A stretch of 44,487 nt of DNA. It comes from Martelella mediterranea (GTDB lineage Bacteria; Pseudomonadota; Alphaproteobacteria; Rhizobiales; Rhizobiaceae). The notes beneath the pieces were generated by a model, which was given only the letters and a program-made list of their open reading frames with translations, was not told the DNA's origin and made no database searches. Each line of letters opens with the position of its first letter. The stretch's first letter is position 1. The stretch lies in NCBI GenBank assembly GCA_003001975.1, contig PVUG01000023.1:1-44487 (forward strand). Reading direction: 5' to 3'. Positions 9,386-43,956 of this stretch are shown here, in pieces. The position numbers and the translations under genes are program-made.

Positions 9386-9401
9386 AGACAAAGTTGTCGG
9401 A

Positions 9402-9520
9402 GTTGCGCCCTCCTCCTCCCAGCGCACTTCGATTTCGACCGGCGATCCTCCTCCTCCCAATCGCTGGTCATTATGATGACGCCCACCGGATCCTCCTCCC
9501 CCGGTGGGCGTTTTCTTTTG
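9402..9520 (+). ncRNA. Tandem CcsR/cuckoo-type small RNAs with CCUCCUCC loops
   Basis: Three consecutive hairpins show anti-Shine-Dalgarno loops. Hairpin 1 has stem TGCGC/GCGCA (9404-9408, 9422-9426). Hairpin 2 has a 10-bp stem (9437-9446, 9460-9469, one G-T pair). Their 13-base loops are identical, CCTCCTCCTCCCA. Hairpin 3 has an 11-bp stem (9479-9489, 9501-9511) with TCCTCCTCCC in the loop, followed by a T-rich tail. This matches the alphaproteobacterial cuckoo family, including the R. sphaeroides CcsR RNAs, which are made from the 3' part of a DUF1127 mRNA and act in stress and C1 metabolism. Exact 5' ends cannot be read from sequence. Confidence 0.85.
9479..9520 (+). terminator. Rho-independent terminator, third CCUCC hairpin
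   Basis: An 11-bp perfect stem, ACGCCCACCGG (9479-9489) with CCGGTGGGCGT (9501-9511), is followed by TTTTCTTTT. It ends the DUF1127-small RNA transcript, and its loop carries the third CCTCCTCCC motif. Confidence 0.88.
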
Positions 9521-39046: not shown

Positions 39047-39075
39047 TTGACAGGGGGCGCAAAGCCCGACAGAAT
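39047..39075 (+). promoter_or_regulatory. Sigma-70-type promoter of the thi operon
   Basis: A consensus -35 TTGACA (39047-39052) and a -10 CAGAAT (39070-39075, 4 of 6 matches) are separated by 17 bases. Transcription would start at about 39082, just at the first paired strand of the TPP aptamer, which supports the assignment. Confidence 0.7.
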
Positions 39076-39083
39076 CACGGAAA

Positions 39084-39169
39084 TTCCGAGGGGAGCATCA
39101 TCCGATGCTGAGATGGCAATGCGCCGGACCCTTGAACCTGATCCGGGTCATACCGGCGTAGGAACGGAA
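39084..39169 (+). promoter_or_regulatory. TPP (thiamine pyrophosphate) riboswitch
   Basis: The conserved aptamer elements appear in order. The P1 strand TTCCG (39084-39088) pairs with CGGAA (39165-39169). GGGGAGC is followed by CTGAGA (39108-39113, the pyrimidine-sensing arm). GACCCTTGAACCTGATCC includes the ACCTGATC core (39136-39143), then GGGTCATACCGGCGTAGGAA forms the pyrophosphate-sensing arm. The spacing between CTGAGA and ACCTGATC is normal. The aptamer is directly after a TTGACA promoter and about 130 bases before thiE. Binding of TPP is expected to lower expression of thiE and the TRAP genes. Confidence 0.96.
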
Positions 39170-39240
39170 AATGGTTGCCTTCCCTGTTTTCGCGCCCGCG
39201 CCGCTGCCCGGTCTTCGTGTATGATCGTGGAGCGCTTTCT

Positions 39241-39300
39241 ATGCCGTTGGACATTCGTAATATCTGCCCGCCGGGAACCATCGCCGGGGCACGGCCATGA
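39241..39300 (+). CDS. Candidate 19-residue leader peptide coupled to thiE
   Basis: A short frame starts at ATG 39241 after a good GGAG site (39230-39233) and ends with a TGA that overlaps the thiE start codon (ATGA at 39297-39300). The peptide begins MPLDIRNICPPG. It is in a different frame from thiE. The thiE site GGGG (39286-39289) can be paired by TGCCC (39265-39269) within this frame, so translating the leader would open it. It may be the point at which the riboswitch acts. No homologue is recognised, and chance cannot be excluded for such a short frame. Confidence 0.45.
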   Translation: MPLDIRNICPPGTIAGARP

Positions 39301-39959
39301 GAACGGTCGACTATCGCCTGAACGCCATTGTCGATGCCGGTCTGGTTGAGGCCGCGCCGCTGGCGGAGTTGGCGCGGCTTGCCGCCGAAAACGGCGCAAC
39401 GCTGATCCAGTATCGCGACAAATTCGCCAAAACCCGTCAGATGGTCGAACGCGCCGTTCAAATCCGCGCGGCGCTCGCGCCCACCGGTGTGCCCTTCGTC
39501 GTCAATGACCGGGTCGACGTGGCCCTTGCGGCCGACGCCGACGGGGTGCATCTGGGCAGCGACGACATGCCGGCGGAGATCGCCCGGAAGCTGCTTGGCC
39601 CGGACGCCATTATCGGGCTCACGGTCAAGAACGCCTCCGATGGCGCCAGGGCGGCGGCCGCACCGGTCGATTACGCCTGTATCGGCGGTGTTTTCCAGAC
39701 GCTTTCCAAGATCAATATGGATCCTCCGGTGGGCCTCAACGGCTTTCGTGCGCTGCGCCGCGGCCTCAAACGGGCGCGGCCCGACCTGCCGGTTGGCGCG
39801 ATTGCCGGTATCAAGCTTGAAGACGTGCCACGGCTGATGGCCGAAGGCGCCGACGGCATTGCGGTGATTTCCGCAATTTTCCACGCACCCGACGTTTCAG
39901 CCGCAACCCGTGAGCTCCGCCGGAGCGTAGACACGGCCATCGCGCACCCGGCACAATGA
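39297..39959 (+). CDS. thiE: Thiamine phosphate synthase
   Basis: A 220-residue TIM-barrel enzyme that joins hydroxymethylpyrimidine diphosphate and thiazole phosphate to thiamine phosphate. Family motifs are QYRDK (38-42), ND at 70-71, DGVHLG (82-87), the pyrophosphate loop GVFQTLSK (131-138), AIAGI (168-172) and VISAI (190-194). It departs from the consensus in places (QYRDK for QLREK, GGVFQTLSK for GPVFPTxTK), like other alphaproteobacterial second copies. It is preceded by a TPP riboswitch, and its stop overlaps the TRAP permease start by ATGA. No other thiamine gene is next to it. Confidence 0.92.
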   Translation: MRTVDYRLNAIVDAGLVEAAPLAELARLAAENGATLIQYRDKFAKTRQMVERAVQIRAALAPTGVPFVVNDRVDVALAADADGVHLGSDDMPAEIARKLLGPDAIIGLTVKNASDGARAAAAPVDYACIGGVFQTLSKINMDPPVGLNGFRALRRGLKRARPDLPVGAIAGIKLEDVPRLMAEGADGIAVISAIFHAPDVSAATRELRRSVDTAIAHPAQ

Positions 39960-41755
39960 CAAAAAAGCCCGGCACGCTGCACGCCCGGGCAGCACAGCTT
40001 GCCACGCGGCTGGAAACCGCACTCGCGATGATCGCCGCGGCCGTGCTGGCGGTGATGCTCGCCGTGGTGCTGACCAGCGTGGTTCTGCGCTATCTGTTTC
40101 ACACCGGACTGATCGGAACGGAAGATCTCGGCATCTGGCTGAATGTGGCGCTGATTGCCCTTGCCGCGCCGCTTGCGCTGTCCGGGCCGCTTGCCATGCG
40201 GCTTGATCTGCCTTTCGGCCCGTCTGCCAAAAAACTGGCCGGCATCATTGCCGATGCGTTCAGCCTGCTGGCGGCTCTTGTGCTGATTTTCGGCAGCACG
40301 CGCGTCGTGAACCTCATCGGCGGCACATCGCCGGCACTCGGCCTTCCCGAATGGGTACGGTTTGCGGTGACCGGCGCAGGCGGCGGTCTTCTCGCGATCA
40401 TTCTCGTTCTTCGCCGCATCGGCGAACGGCAGGTTCTGCCGCTTGCGGCATCGGCAATCCTTGCATCCGCAGTCTATTACGCCTGCCTGCATGTCACCGT
40501 CACAACCGCCCTGCCTGCAAGCATTGCAATCGCGATAGCGGCGGTAGTCGGCCTTGCCGCCGCCGCACCGCTTGCCCACGCCTTCATCGCGGCGGCGATG
40601 ATCGCCATTCCCTTCGGCGGCAATCTTGGAACGGAAACCATCGTCACCACGGCCGTTTCCGGCATGTCCCACTTTCTGTTGCTCGCCATTCCGTTCTTCC
40701 TGCTGACGGGGGCAGCCCTTTCCGCCTCGGGCGCGGCAAGGCACCTTGTGGCCTTCGCCGCCTCACTGGTCGGCCACCGGCGCGGCGGGCTGGCCCAGAC
40801 AGTGCTGGCCACCGGCACGCTGTTTTCCGGTGCCTCAGGCTCATCGGTCGCCAATGCCGTGTTTTCCGCCACCACCTTTCACCCGGAACTCGTGCGCCAT
40901 GGCTATCCGCCGGCCCGCTCCGGCGCGATCATTGCCGCCTCGTCGGTGCTCGACAACATCATCCCGCCGTCAATTGCCTTCCTGATCCTGGCGGCCGCCA
41001 CCGACCTTTCCGTGGGCGCACTGCTTCTCGGCGGGCTGTTTGCGGGGCTGGTGATGGCGGCGGCTCTCTCCATCGCCATTTACCTCACGACCCGCAATCT
41101 GCCCGGCAGCAAACCGGCGGCCAGGGGCGAACGCCGGCGTTCCCTGCTGGCAGCAGTCCCCGCTTTCGGGCTCGGCGTCATCGTGGTTGTCGGCATCCGC
41201 ATCGGCATCGTCACCACCACCGAGGCGGCGGCCCTTGCGGCCATCTATACACTTGCACTTGCGGCTTTTTCGAAAACGCGCCGGACAGCGCTTTTTTCGG
41301 TTTTCCGACAGACCGCGACCGAAGCTGCTGCCATCGGCCTTCTCATCGGTTCGGCCGGGCCGTTTGCCTTTCAGCTTGCCGTCGACGGCGTATCCGGCAT
41401 GATCGCCTCAACCGTTGCCGCTTTCGGCGGTTCTCCCGCCGCGGTTCTGGCCTTTTCCGTCATCGTTCTGCTTGGCGCCGGGCTGGTTCTCGATATCGGC
41501 GCGGCGATCCTGCTTTTAGGCCCCCTTCTGCTGCCGCTTGCCACCGGCTCGGGCATCGATCCGATCGCCTTCGGCGTGATCATCGTCACCACGCTGATGA
41601 TCGGCGGCCTGACGCCACCGGTCGGCATGCTGGTTCTGGTGGTGGCCGGCGTGACGGAGGTTCCCCCGGCAGCGCTTTTTCGCGCGGTGCTGCCCTATCT
41701 CGCCGCGCTTCTTGCGGCAATCGCCATTCTGTGCATCTGCACCCTGTTGATCTGA
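39956..41755 (+). CDS. TRAP transporter fused permease (DctQ-DctM), thiamine-regulated
   Basis: A 599-residue inner-membrane protein. Residues about 1-165 are a DctQ-type small subunit with four helices (RYLFHTGLIGTEDLGIWLNV is the typical segment). The rest is a DctM-type channel with the family motifs LFSGASGSSVANA, SSVLDNIIPPSIAFL and the late GGLTPPVGMLV. It uses a Na+ or proton gradient together with the periplasmic binding protein encoded next. The ATGA overlap with thiE places it in the TPP regulon. The cargo is therefore predicted to be thiamine or a thiamine-related compound, which is unusual for TRAP systems, which mostly carry carboxylates. Confidence 0.9.
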   Translation: MTKKPGTLHARAAQLATRLETALAMIAAAVLAVMLAVVLTSVVLRYLFHTGLIGTEDLGIWLNVALIALAAPLALSGPLAMRLDLPFGPSAKKLAGIIADAFSLLAALVLIFGSTRVVNLIGGTSPALGLPEWVRFAVTGAGGGLLAIILVLRRIGERQVLPLAASAILASAVYYACLHVTVTTALPASIAIAIAAVVGLAAAAPLAHAFIAAAMIAIPFGGNLGTETIVTTAVSGMSHFLLLAIPFFLLTGAALSASGAARHLVAFAASLVGHRRGGLAQTVLATGTLFSGASGSSVANAVFSATTFHPELVRHGYPPARSGAIIAASSVLDNIIPPSIAFLILAAATDLSVGALLLGGLFAGLVMAAALSIAIYLTTRNLPGSKPAARGERRRSLLAAVPAFGLGVIVVVGIRIGIVTTTEAAALAAIYTLALAAFSKTRRTALFSVFRQTATEAAAIGLLIGSAGPFAFQLAVDGVSGMIASTVAAFGGSPAAVLAFSVIVLLGAGLVLDIGAAILLLGPLLLPLATGSGIDPIAFGVIIVTTLMIGGLTPPVGMLVLVVAGVTEVPPAALFRAVLPYLAALLAAIAILCICTLLI

Positions 41756-41766
41756 GAGGAAACGTC

Positions 41767-42756
41767 ATGCAGCCCCTCACCCGTCGCCATTTCCTGAAAG
41801 CCGCTACGCTGACCGCGCTTTCGGCCCCGTATATCGCCCGCCCGGCCCTGGCGCAGACCACGGTGACCGTCGCCTCATTGCTCGGAGAGGACAAGCCGGA
41901 AACCAGGATCTGGCGTTATATCGCCGAAAAGGCCGAGGAACGACTGCCCGGGCGTTTTCGCTTCAACATCGTCGCCAATGGCGCGCTGGGCGGGGAGAAA
42001 CAGGTTGCCGACAGCATCCGCCTCGGTTCCGTGCAGGCGAGCCTTTCGACCGTTTCGGCGCTGTCATCATGGGTGCCGCAATTGCAGATCCTCGACCTGC
42101 CATTCCTGTTTCGCAGTCCCGAACACCTTGGCCGCGTGGTTGCAGGCCCCGTGGGTACGGAGCTGAAAAGCGCGCTTGCCGATGAGCGCTTCATCGTCGG
42201 CGGCTTTATCGACTACGGCGCCCGCCATCTTCTGACGAAAACGCCGGTAACCCGACCGGAAGGGCTTGAAGGCGTCACGATCAGGGTGATCAATAGTCCG
42301 CTTCACACCGGGTTGTGGAGCGCCTTTGGCGCGGTTCCCGTCGGCATCCCGATTACCGAGACCTATAACGCGCTGGCGACCGGGGTTGCGGATGCCATGG
42401 ACCTGACCAAATCCGCCTATGCCGGTTTCAAGCTTTACGAGGTCGTGCCGTGCCTGACCGAAACCGGACATATCCGCGCGTCCGGCGTGATCTATTTTTC
42501 ACAAGCGTTCTGGGACGGGCTCGACCCCGAGGCTCAAGCCGTTCTGGAGACAATTTCAGCCGAGGCCGCGCTCTATTTCAATGCGCTGATCGTGGAAGAC
42601 GAAACCGCGGCCATGGAAACCGCGCGCGAAAATGGCGGCACCGTGCTCCAGCCCGAGGACATGGACGCCTGGCGGGCGGGCGCCAGGAACGTCTGGGCCG
42701 ATTTCGCCCCGGCCGTCGGCGGCATGGAACGGATCGAAACGGTCGCAAACACCTGA
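41767..42756 (+). CDS. TRAP transporter substrate-binding protein (DctP family)
   Basis: A 329-residue exported binding protein. It has a twin-arginine signal (R6-R7 in RRHFLKA) with cleavage near residue 29 (ALA|QTT), so it is probably folded before export. The DctP fold is indicated by FRFNIVANGALGGEKQVADSI, the LDLPFLFR segment, the ligand-binding arginine of VTIRVIN (about residue 176), ITETYNALATGVADAMD and the long FSQAFWDGLDPEAQAVLE helix. A GAGAGGA site sets the start. It is 11 bases after the permease gene. In most TRAP binding proteins the Arg holds a carboxylate; its role here is open. Confidence 0.9.
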   Translation: MQPLTRRHFLKAATLTALSAPYIARPALAQTTVTVASLLGEDKPETRIWRYIAEKAEERLPGRFRFNIVANGALGGEKQVADSIRLGSVQASLSTVSALSSWVPQLQILDLPFLFRSPEHLGRVVAGPVGTELKSALADERFIVGGFIDYGARHLLTKTPVTRPEGLEGVTIRVINSPLHTGLWSAFGAVPVGIPITETYNALATGVADAMDLTKSAYAGFKLYEVVPCLTETGHIRASGVIYFSQAFWDGLDPEAQAVLETISAEAALYFNALIVEDETAAMETARENGGTVLQPEDMDAWRAGARNVWADFAPAVGGMERIETVANT

Positions 42757-42858
42757 CAGGCAGAGGTCAGAAATGATCTTCAAAAGTCTCAGACCTTGCG
42801 CCGGCGAAAACCCCGCAATACTCTCTCGCCAATGCGCCAATAGATAACGAGGTAATCC

Positions 42859-43956
42859 ATGTGCACGTCCCTGCTCTACACAGATCTTTCCGGCTCCGTT
42901 TACGCAGGACGCACACTGGAGCTGCCGGTGGAACTGCCTTATCTGGCGGCGTTCCTGCCCAGCGGCACACCGCTTTCGTCAAAGGCCGGCAATCATGCAC
43001 CGCTTACCTATGAGAGCCGCTACGACATTTTCGGCGTCGTGGTGCCCAATGGCAGCGTCGAGGACCTGAAAGTGGTGGAAGGCCTGAACGAGGCCGGGCT
43101 GAATTTCTCCCTGCTTGCCTTCGCCGACACGCATGGCCCCGATGACACGCAAGCCGAGGATGTGCCGGTGCTGTCGGCAATCGATCTCGGCGCATGGATG
43201 CTGGCACAGTTTTCCACCGTGGCGGAAGTCAGGGAAGCGCTTGAAAAGCAGACGGTTCTGGTCGATCCGCTGGCAGCCCTCGGCGGCGTTGTGCCGCCGT
43301 TCCACTACACGGTTCATGACCGGAGCGGCGCGTCCATCGTCATCGAATTCTTCGACGGCGAACGCCATATCTTCGACAATCCGCTGGGCGTGATGACCAA
43401 CAGCCCGCGTTTCGACTGGCACCTGACCAATCTCAACAACTATACCCATCTCAGCAATATCGACCATTCAAGCGCGACCTTGCTCGGACAGAATTTCATA
43501 CAGCCCGATTCCGGCATCGCCACGGTGACGCTGCCCGGTTCGGACACCGCCGTCGACCGGTTTGTCCGGGCCGTCTATTACGCCCATTTTTCAGAAAAGG
43601 CGGACGGACCCGAAGCGTCGCTGCGCCAGCTTGGCCATGTGATGAACAAGTTCGACCGGCCAAAGGGGGCCTCCGTCTATTCCAGCGCCAAGGCCAGCGC
43701 ACTGACGGAATCGGCCACCAGGCTGACCGGCCAGCAACCGGCGCAAAAACCGGAATTCATCACCGAATACACCTCCTGGATCACGCTGATCGATCTGGAA
43801 CGCAGCACAGTGATGCTGCGCACCTATAACAGCCTCGGCTATGCGTCCTTCGACCTTGCCGCGCTGAAGGCCGGCGCCACCGGCCCCAAGGTCGTCCCGC
43901 TCGAAGCCTTCGATCAGGGCAGCCCCGACGCCGACAAGATGCTGCTGGCACTTTAA
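42859..43956 (+). CDS. Choloylglycine hydrolase-family linear amide C-N hydrolase
   Basis: A 365-residue N-terminal nucleophile hydrolase. Cys2 becomes the free N-terminal nucleophile after Met removal (MCTS). The catalytic set of penicillin V acylase and bile-salt hydrolase is complete: R18 in YAGRTLE, N82 in GLNF, N181 in VMTNSPRFDW and R234 in VDRFVRA. No signal peptide is seen, so it is cytoplasmic. The gene starts 102 bases after the TRAP binding-protein gene with no terminator between, and a terminator follows it, so it may be part of the thiamine-regulated transcript. Possible substrates are N-acyl amines, acyl homoserine lactones or an imported amide. Confidence 0.85.
   Translation: MCTSLLYTDLSGSVYAGRTLELPVELPYLAAFLPSGTPLSSKAGNHAPLTYESRYDIFGVVVPNGSVEDLKVVEGLNEAGLNFSLLAFADTHGPDDTQAEDVPVLSAIDLGAWMLAQFSTVAEVREALEKQTVLVDPLAALGGVVPPFHYTVHDRSGASIVIEFFDGERHIFDNPLGVMTNSPRFDWHLTNLNNYTHLSNIDHSSATLLGQNFIQPDSGIATVTLPGSDTAVDRFVRAVYYAHFSEKADGPEASLRQLGHVMNKFDRPKGASVYSSAKASALTESATRLTGQQPAQKPEFITEYTSWITLIDLERSTVMLRTYNSLGYASFDLAALKAGATGPKVVPLEAFDQGSPDADKMLLAL

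Follow-up and report, generated by a model that had tools for sequence, protein, structure and literature searches.

What does a transporter of the tripartite ATP-independent periplasmic (TRAP) family import when its genes stand behind a thiamine pyrophosphate (TPP) riboswitch? The question is raised by a locus of Martelella mediterranea (GenBank assembly GCA_003001975.1, contig PVUG01000023.1, positions 1 to 44,487 of the forward strand; this whole stretch of 44,487 nucleotides is referred to as the window), in which a TPP aptamer is followed by thiE, a gene for a fused DctQ-DctM permease (QM) and a gene for a DctP solute-binding protein. A first-pass annotation, made from the sequence alone, had predicted that the TRAP system takes up a thiamine compound under TPP control and had treated thiamine, its pyrimidine half, its thiazole half and breakdown products as equal candidates. 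Our analysis supports a thiamine compound, and the candidates no longer appear equal, as the evidence favours the thiazole half. Judging from sequence comparisons, we put at roughly 0.6 the probability that the system imports the thiazole half of thiamine, most likely carboxythiazole (cHET), under repression by TPP.

Organization of the locus

A predicted promoter matching the consensus at 10 of 12 bases and an aptamer scoring above the RF00059 gathering score lead into thiE (Table 1), as had been claimed, with the small correction that position 39047 marks the -35 hexamer and the aptamer itself starts at 39079. The thiE stop codon and the QM ATG overlap in ATGA (39956-39959), and 11 bases (41756-41766) separate QM from DctP, in agreement with the earlier coordinates; QM had been called a DctQ-DctM fusion, and both Pfam domains were indeed matched in one gene. 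Since PF04290, PF06808 and PF03480 all scored above cutoff, the domain set of a DctP-type TRAP system is complete in the operon. Among curated TRAP models, TIGR00786 (dctM) gave 276 bits against a cutoff of 268, TRAP_S1 gave 188 against 50, and TIGR00787 (dctP) gave 158 for the window DctP, under its cutoff of 175. No ATP-binding cassette (ABC) permease or ATPase genes were found in the window operon, whose membrane domains are of the TRAP type only, and the solved structure closest to QM is that of the isethionate TRAP permease DctMQ (9pym).

The downstream genes are predicted to be repressed by TPP. Folding of the linker and leader gave stabilities no better than those of shuffled sequences, and an expression platform was not seen by folding; the linker holds a single terminator-like hairpin (39213-39232; 0.4 expected). 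A scan of positions 39900-43000 returned one promoter-like site (39928-39957, 9/12 bases; shuffles mean 0.4) and nine terminator-like sites (shuffles mean 3.5).

Recurrence of the riboswitch-TRAP arrangement

A single adjacency of a TPP riboswitch and TRAP genes is not astonishing, because the window genome (4.63 Mb, 99.89% complete) contains five TPP riboswitches and, with 28 DctP-family matches, a large TRAP repertoire. Recurrence in other genomes, by contrast, speaks against chance adjacency. When the window genome and 60 relatives were searched with QM, matches were obtained in 12 of the 61 genomes at E 1e-60, and 9 of the 11 QM loci outside the window genome had a TPP aptamer upstream; the two without one were a locus truncated by a contig end (L031) and one that is not an orthologue (L032, 36% identity). 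Four of the nine relatives showed the order TPP-thiE-QM-P, where P stands for DctP (L022-L025), and five showed TPP-QM-P without a thiE match (L026-L030). A scan of named genomes with a DctP alignment, in which 80 loci were kept of 195, found an upstream aptamer in 22 of the 80 (E 5.1e-17 or better), using a model built from 14 aptamers that included the window's own and those of relatives; a twenty-third match (14 bits, other strand) was dropped from this count. Among 43 further loci, a set that overlaps the 80, 20 had an upstream aptamer. The commonest layout, TPP-thiX-thiY-thiM-thiE-thiD-QM-P, was found at 15/22 and 17/20 of the aptamer loci, and the remainder of the 22 consisted of TPP-thiX-thiY-QM-P (4), TPP-thiE-QM-P (2) and TPP-QM-P (1).

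The order riboswitch-thiE-TRAP, which the first-pass annotation had proposed to look for elsewhere, thus occurs in other genomes, where aptamers also precede the TRAP genes without thiE and often inside a salvage operon. Recurrence across four layouts supports the prediction that TPP controls a TRAP system importing a thiamine compound. The coupling to thiE had been offered as a further argument; the overlap is real, but it is not key evidence, as several relatives' operons do without thiE.

In one of the salvage operons (L041), the thiM, thiE and thiD products scored above cutoffs for hydroxyethylthiazole kinase, thiamine phosphate synthase and hydroxymethylpyrimidine (HMP) phosphate kinase. 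Such a full operon has a pyrimidine importer, kinases for both moieties and ThiE, so that a thiazole importer alone is missing, which argues that the TRAP system fills this place. The window thiE is 62% identical to the L041 copy and 37% identical to the thiE of its own genome's thiMED genes, and thiX and thiY at another riboswitch of the window genome (L007) share 62% and 69% identity with the copies in the L041 operon. Because of these resemblances, the window locus looks like the remnant of a broken-up salvage operon of which thiE and the TRAP genes were kept.

Some loci call for separate comment. With the window QM as query, tblastn at E 1e-12 gave no match at two TPP-plus loci (L160, L161) and three TPP-minus loci (L074, L088, L145), which were counted by their DctP. 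L160 and L161 are TPP-thiXYMED loci with a more distant DctP (54%), and their permease may have diverged or been displaced. One scanned stretch, at L049, is without a Pfam match, and its reading frame is a guess. The loci in records titled 'Marinicella sp. W31' (L039) and 'Bacillus subtilis SK6B4' (L066) group with Martelella and Pseudochrobactrum, and these record names look wrong.

Thiamine genes of the window genome

The first-pass annotation had suggested checking whether genomes with this arrangement lack known importers or synthesis genes. In the window genome, thiBPQ, thiXY and thiC proved to be present, and ThiG was the component not found: it gave no match there at E 0.001, and none in the search of a 394-genome survey. 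ThiC, ThiM, ThiE, ThiD, ThiB and ThiP scored above curated cutoffs; ThiQ was the best match for its protein, yet scored below cutoff. The L007 binding protein, ThiY, has as its closest solved structure the formyl-aminopyrimidine (FAMP)-binding protein 3ix1, and for this reason the pyrimidine half appears to be importable already. Judged by gene content, the organism can make the pyrimidine half, can import thiamine and pyrimidine, and has a thiazole kinase and two ThiE proteins; synthesis of the thiazole half is apparently beyond it.

A THI4-type thiazole synthase was considered as a replacement for ThiG and rejected for the window genome, whose best PF01946 match is 31 bits over 46 positions. 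PF01946 was matched in 61/61 genomes, and among the matches listed only that in G058 was full-length (217 bits; the next 40 bits). ThiX and ThiY had no adjoining ATPase gene in view, either at L007 or in the TPP-thiX-thiY operons, and their ATPase may be shared from elsewhere.

Association with the absence of ThiG

We compared the distribution of the TRAP system with those of ThiG and ThiC in 394 genomes of the family. A DctP orthologue (E 1e-110) was present in 50 genomes, ThiG in 192 and ThiC in 187. The orthologue genomes comprised 26 with the riboswitch (TPP-plus), 21 without it (TPP-minus) and three undecided ones (L031 in G020, L155 in G334 and L159 in G470), where the region ends before the expected riboswitch position; among the TPP-minus genomes, the upstream view was short in G257 (4.2 kb upstream of DctP) and G469 (3.9 kb, with ssuA and ssuD visible). 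ThiG was found in 1 of the 26 TPP-plus genomes versus 191 of the 368 others (Fisher 4.6e-7, shared descent uncorrected), whereas ThiC showed no such link (9/26 versus 178/368; p 0.22). Conversely, the riboswitch-linked TRAP was present in 8 of 19 genomes with ThiC and without ThiG, compared to none of 24 with ThiG and without ThiC (p 5e-4, again uncorrected for shared descent). TPP-minus copies were not linked to ThiG, which was found in 8 of 21 (p 0.37). A further sample, drawn from named genomes, overlapping the first and covering 50 of the 80 named loci, had ThiG in 2/22 TPP-plus and 10/27 TPP-minus genomes.

The 26 TPP-plus genomes belong to 11 genera, 10 of which are without any ThiG-bearing TPP-plus genome (crude genus binomial 0.007). 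Within three genera (g79, g104 and g112), ThiG-plus genomes without the TRAP system stand beside ThiG-minus genomes that have it. The sole ThiG-plus TRAP genome of g118 (G440) is the one that has no aptamer; g72 is mixed, G287 carrying both ThiG and the riboswitch-TRAP. Because it is the absence of ThiG, and not that of ThiC, that tracks the riboswitch-TRAP, the thiazole half is favoured as the cargo. A match to the ThiM family (PF02110) was found in 35/35 genomes, namely 34 with the riboswitch-TRAP and the undecided G020, many of these matches being partial (80-120 bits). In the 61-genome sample such a match occurred in 11/11 orthologue genomes versus 17/50 others.

The DctP binding site

An AlphaFold2 model of DctP based on 47 sequences, paralogues included, reached a predicted local distance difference test (pLDDT) score of 92; an earlier model from 11 close sequences (pLDDT 64.6) was not used. 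Foldseek comparison with the PDB indicated an ordinary DctP fold, with query template-modelling (TM) scores of 0.81-0.87 among the best 50 matches listed, and the best matches were DctP proteins for sugar acids, dicarboxylates, sialic acid and others, with no one ligand singled out. By pocket we mean the residues at positions named in the literature for relatives, together with strongly conserved motifs, rather than a site measured from coordinates. One arginine is reported in 96.8% of the DctP family, where it is described as a filter that selects carboxylates (PMC4646407). In the window protein, R173 aligns with an arginine in 22 of the 23 alignable DctP paralogues of the same genome, a second arginine, R153, is matched in 12 of the 23, and both are invariant across 106/106 labelled orthologues. 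Near-universal conservation and the surrounding motif indicate that R173 is the equivalent of SiaP Arg147, in an alignment without SiaP.

Thiamine, HMP, hydroxyethylthiazole (HET) and FAMP are without a carboxylate, whereas cHET has one. Since the conserved R173 would be expected to read acids, cHET is the favoured ligand; it was absent from the assay list proposed in the first-pass annotation (thiamine, HMP, HET and formyl-aminopyrimidine). According to PMC5899164, cHET feeds Escherichia coli lacking thiG at picomolar levels, compared to at least 1e6 pM for HET, and supports marine algae at picomolar levels, ThiM being needed in an alga; the same source names phosphorylated cHET (cHET-P) as a ThiE substrate and describes cHET transport systems as of 'unknown sequence identity'.

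The missing operon part and the ThiG association apply equally to HET, the uncharged thiazole alcohol from degraded thiamine, for which ThiM, as hydroxyethylthiazole kinase, is named. One freshwater study also found HET at higher levels, with medians of ~2200-2500 pM compared to ~320-370 pM for dissolved cHET (PMC12637900). However, HET offers no acidic group to R173 and R153, and the DctP protein reported with a non-acid ligand, ethanolamine, is the one that lacks the arginine (PMC4646407). We therefore think it very improbable that HET, instead of cHET, is the cargo.

A sister clade without the riboswitch

The DctP of this system is 62-66% identical to that of a sister clade from Agrobacterium, Pseudochrobactrum, Neorhizobium and others, at whose TRAP loci no TPP aptamer was found. 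The 58 TPP-minus named loci had the layouts ssuA-ssuD-QM-P (34), ssuD-QM-P (4) and QM-P alone (18), or had only DctP in view (2). The SsuD-like protein gave 354 bits to the alkanesulfonate monooxygenase 1nqk and 412 bits to TIGR03565, below the cutoff of 518. An SsuA-like protein (L047:5133-5996; also at L051 and L118), encoded next to the SsuD-like monooxygenase and the sister TRAP, had no signal peptide recognizable on visual inspection, and little in-frame sequence precedes it; rather than a periplasmic binding protein, it may be a cytosolic one with the SsuA/THI5 fold. The SsuA-like protein matched the desulfinase DszB weakly (E 0.095).

Comparison with this clade, together with several other observations, weighs against import of cHET. 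The two pockets are nearly identical: at a 70% threshold, only positions 41, 59, 149, 189, 237 and 244 separate the clades. Two of these are D149 and R237, where the sister clade has N and W, respectively. The common pocket and the SsuA/SsuD-like neighbours suggest that both clades may share a ligand, perhaps a sulfonate; if a common ligand class is possible, a choice of cargo from gene neighbourhood only is weakened. In both clades alike, the asparagine usual at the anion site is Leu213, and because this assisting residue is replaced, the DctP site is not a standard carboxylate site. Neither ThiC nor ThiG was found in 17 of the 26 TPP-plus genomes, and ThiG is kept in three riboswitch-TRAP genomes (G287, G063 and G074), of which G287 and G063 appear to be close kin, since the operon thi proteins of G287 share 94-98% identity with those of L041, which belongs to G063. 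A test of independent pairs, comparing TPP control with ThiG absence on a quick DctP tree, provided only 2-3 pairs (~1 agreeing, 0 opposing) and thus has no power. On the quick DctP tree, the TPP label needs five changes, so that the link would have been gained or lost more than once. Finally, four of the nine terminator-like sites noted above lie on the plus strand within QM or DctP.

It is possible that both clades import the same sulfonate or organic acid, unrelated to thiamine, and that the TPP-linked position reflects operon hitch-hiking. The nearly identical pockets, the SsuA- and SsuD-like neighbours of the TPP-minus loci and the lack of a link between the TPP-minus copies and ThiG would all be consistent with this explanation. 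In contrast, the TPP link persists in four layouts, including the TRAP genes alone behind the switch, and is found at nested positions of the quick tree (L059, L092 and L028). Rhizobium straminoryzae moreover holds both a TPP/thi-linked copy (L090) and an ssuAD-linked copy (L070) of this TRAP family, which argues for different jobs. We consider a cargo unrelated to thiamine quite unlikely.

Another thiamine-related anion could also be the ligand, such as thiamine phosphate, a phosphorylated moiety or a breakdown product of the pyrimidine half; sulfite cleavage of thiamine, for instance, gives the pyrimidine methanesulfonate. TPP control and thi neighbours suit any cargo related to vitamin B1, the TRAP arginine is reported sometimes to hold sulfonates or phosphates (PMC4646407, PMC11668362), and the frequent SsuD-like monooxygenase genes of the sister clade make a sulfonate ligand plausible. 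However, the interval from aptamer to DctP in the riboswitch operons holds only thi genes and QM, and no phosphatase or desulfonating enzyme was found there. Furthermore, thiBPQ for thiamine and thiXY for the pyrimidine are already present in the window genome, and the system tracks missing ThiG rather than missing ThiC. On balance, an anion of this kind appears an unlikely cargo, and import of cHET remains our preferred explanation.

Proposed role in thiazole salvage

In the proposed scheme, scarcity of TPP would cause the riboswitch to permit expression of thiE, QM and DctP. DctP would then catch the acidic thiazole precursor, most likely cHET, in the periplasm, and the QM permease would carry it into the cell. 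There, ThiM, encoded elsewhere in the genome, would phosphorylate the precursor, and ThiE would couple the product to HMP pyrophosphate supplied by ThiC and ThiD, with loss of the carboxylate, to give thiamine phosphate. Conversion of the latter to TPP would close the riboswitch. In this scheme we infer the direction of transport, the cargo, repression by TPP and the action of ThiM and ThiE on the imported compound. A wider proposal, to which we give slightly less than even chances, is that this is the missing high-affinity, TPP-repressed cHET importer, through which thiG-less alphaproteobacteria live on the thiazole of their neighbours, and that the ssuAD-linked sister clade may obtain sulfur by taking up the same or a closely similar organosulfur acid.

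Rhizobium leguminosarum 3841 reportedly grows on HMP plus thiazole through thiMED, as stated in a 2006 paper. For the transport of cHET, which can be measured in lake water, the locus provides a concrete candidate gene pair, widespread in rhizobia and Martelella-like bacteria. If the proposal is true, TRAP carriers would be extended to vitamin moieties, and genome sequences could be used to recognize thiazole auxotrophy and cross-feeding among bacteria of soils and the sea.

No link between TRAP transporters and thiamine was found in the open-licence literature searched, and the link may have been annotated before, for example in RegPrecise. PMC9870897 mentions TRAP and thiamine-related terms in unrelated contexts, and where 'TRAP' appears in a 2013 survey of riboswitch regulons (PMC3766115), only a different protein is meant. 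The gene table of B1-related transport genes in PMC10881298 is without a thiazole transporter, and the legend of a 2025 pathway figure assigns question marks to missing transporter annotations (PMC12637900).

Other features

The coordinates of the operon and the other TPP riboswitches of the window genome are given in Table 1. Elsewhere in the window, a choloylglycine hydrolase-family gene (PF02275) lies downstream of DctP at 42859-43956 on the plus strand, and an alphaproteobacterial ar14 small RNA (RF02344, 106 bits) lies at 9392-9516, also on the plus strand.

Table 1. Features of the riboswitch-thiE-TRAP operon (window positions) and further TPP riboswitches of the same genome
Feature	Position	Strand	Evidence or associated genes
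Predicted sigma-70-like promoter, TTGACA-17-CAGAAT	39047-39075	+	consensus scan, 10/12 bases; shuffles mean 0.1
TPP riboswitch aptamer, RF00059	39079-39181	+	covariance model, 78.7 bits vs gathering score 54.3, E 5e-14
Linker from aptamer to thiE, 115 bases	39182-39296	+	sequence
thiE, thiamine phosphate synthase	39297-39959	+	TIGR00693, 181 bits vs cutoff 145
QM, fused DctQ-DctM TRAP permease	39956-41755	+	DctQ PF04290, 55 bits; DctM PF06808, 272 bits
DctP solute-binding protein	41767-42756	+	PF03480, 193 bits
TPP riboswitch, L006			thiC
TPP riboswitch, L007			ABC permease and NMT1/THI5-like binding protein
TPP riboswitch, L008			thiM-thiE-thiD
TPP riboswitch, L009			thiB-thiP-thiQ

Comparison with known systems

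The system is best read as a TRAP variant that would be new by its predicted cargo and control, and not as a new kind of machine. It shares with SiaPQM (sialic acid) and IsePQM (isethionate) the DctP fold, a fused QM and the canonical arginine pair, and differs from them in standing next to thi genes downstream of a TPP riboswitch, in Leu213 and in a predicted vitamin-moiety cargo. The sister TRAP linked to SsuA and SsuD has nearly the same pocket but stands beside ssu genes, shows no link to ThiG and had no aptamer that we could find. Uptake of the thiazole under thiamine riboswitches, as predicted here, is also ascribed to ThiW and other predicted thiazole transporters, which are single membrane proteins unrelated to TRAP and have no binding protein. 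ThiW occurs as a gene name in PMC6478431. Like the window TRAP, ThiXYZ, the importer of pyrimidine or FAMP, represents TPP-linked import of a moiety, and thiX and thiY share an operon with the TRAP genes in relatives; unlike it, ThiXYZ belongs to the ABC family, and the expected ligand of ThiY is the pyrimidine half. ThiBPQ, which is likewise found behind a TPP riboswitch and is present in the same genome, differs in being of the ABC type and in importing whole thiamine.

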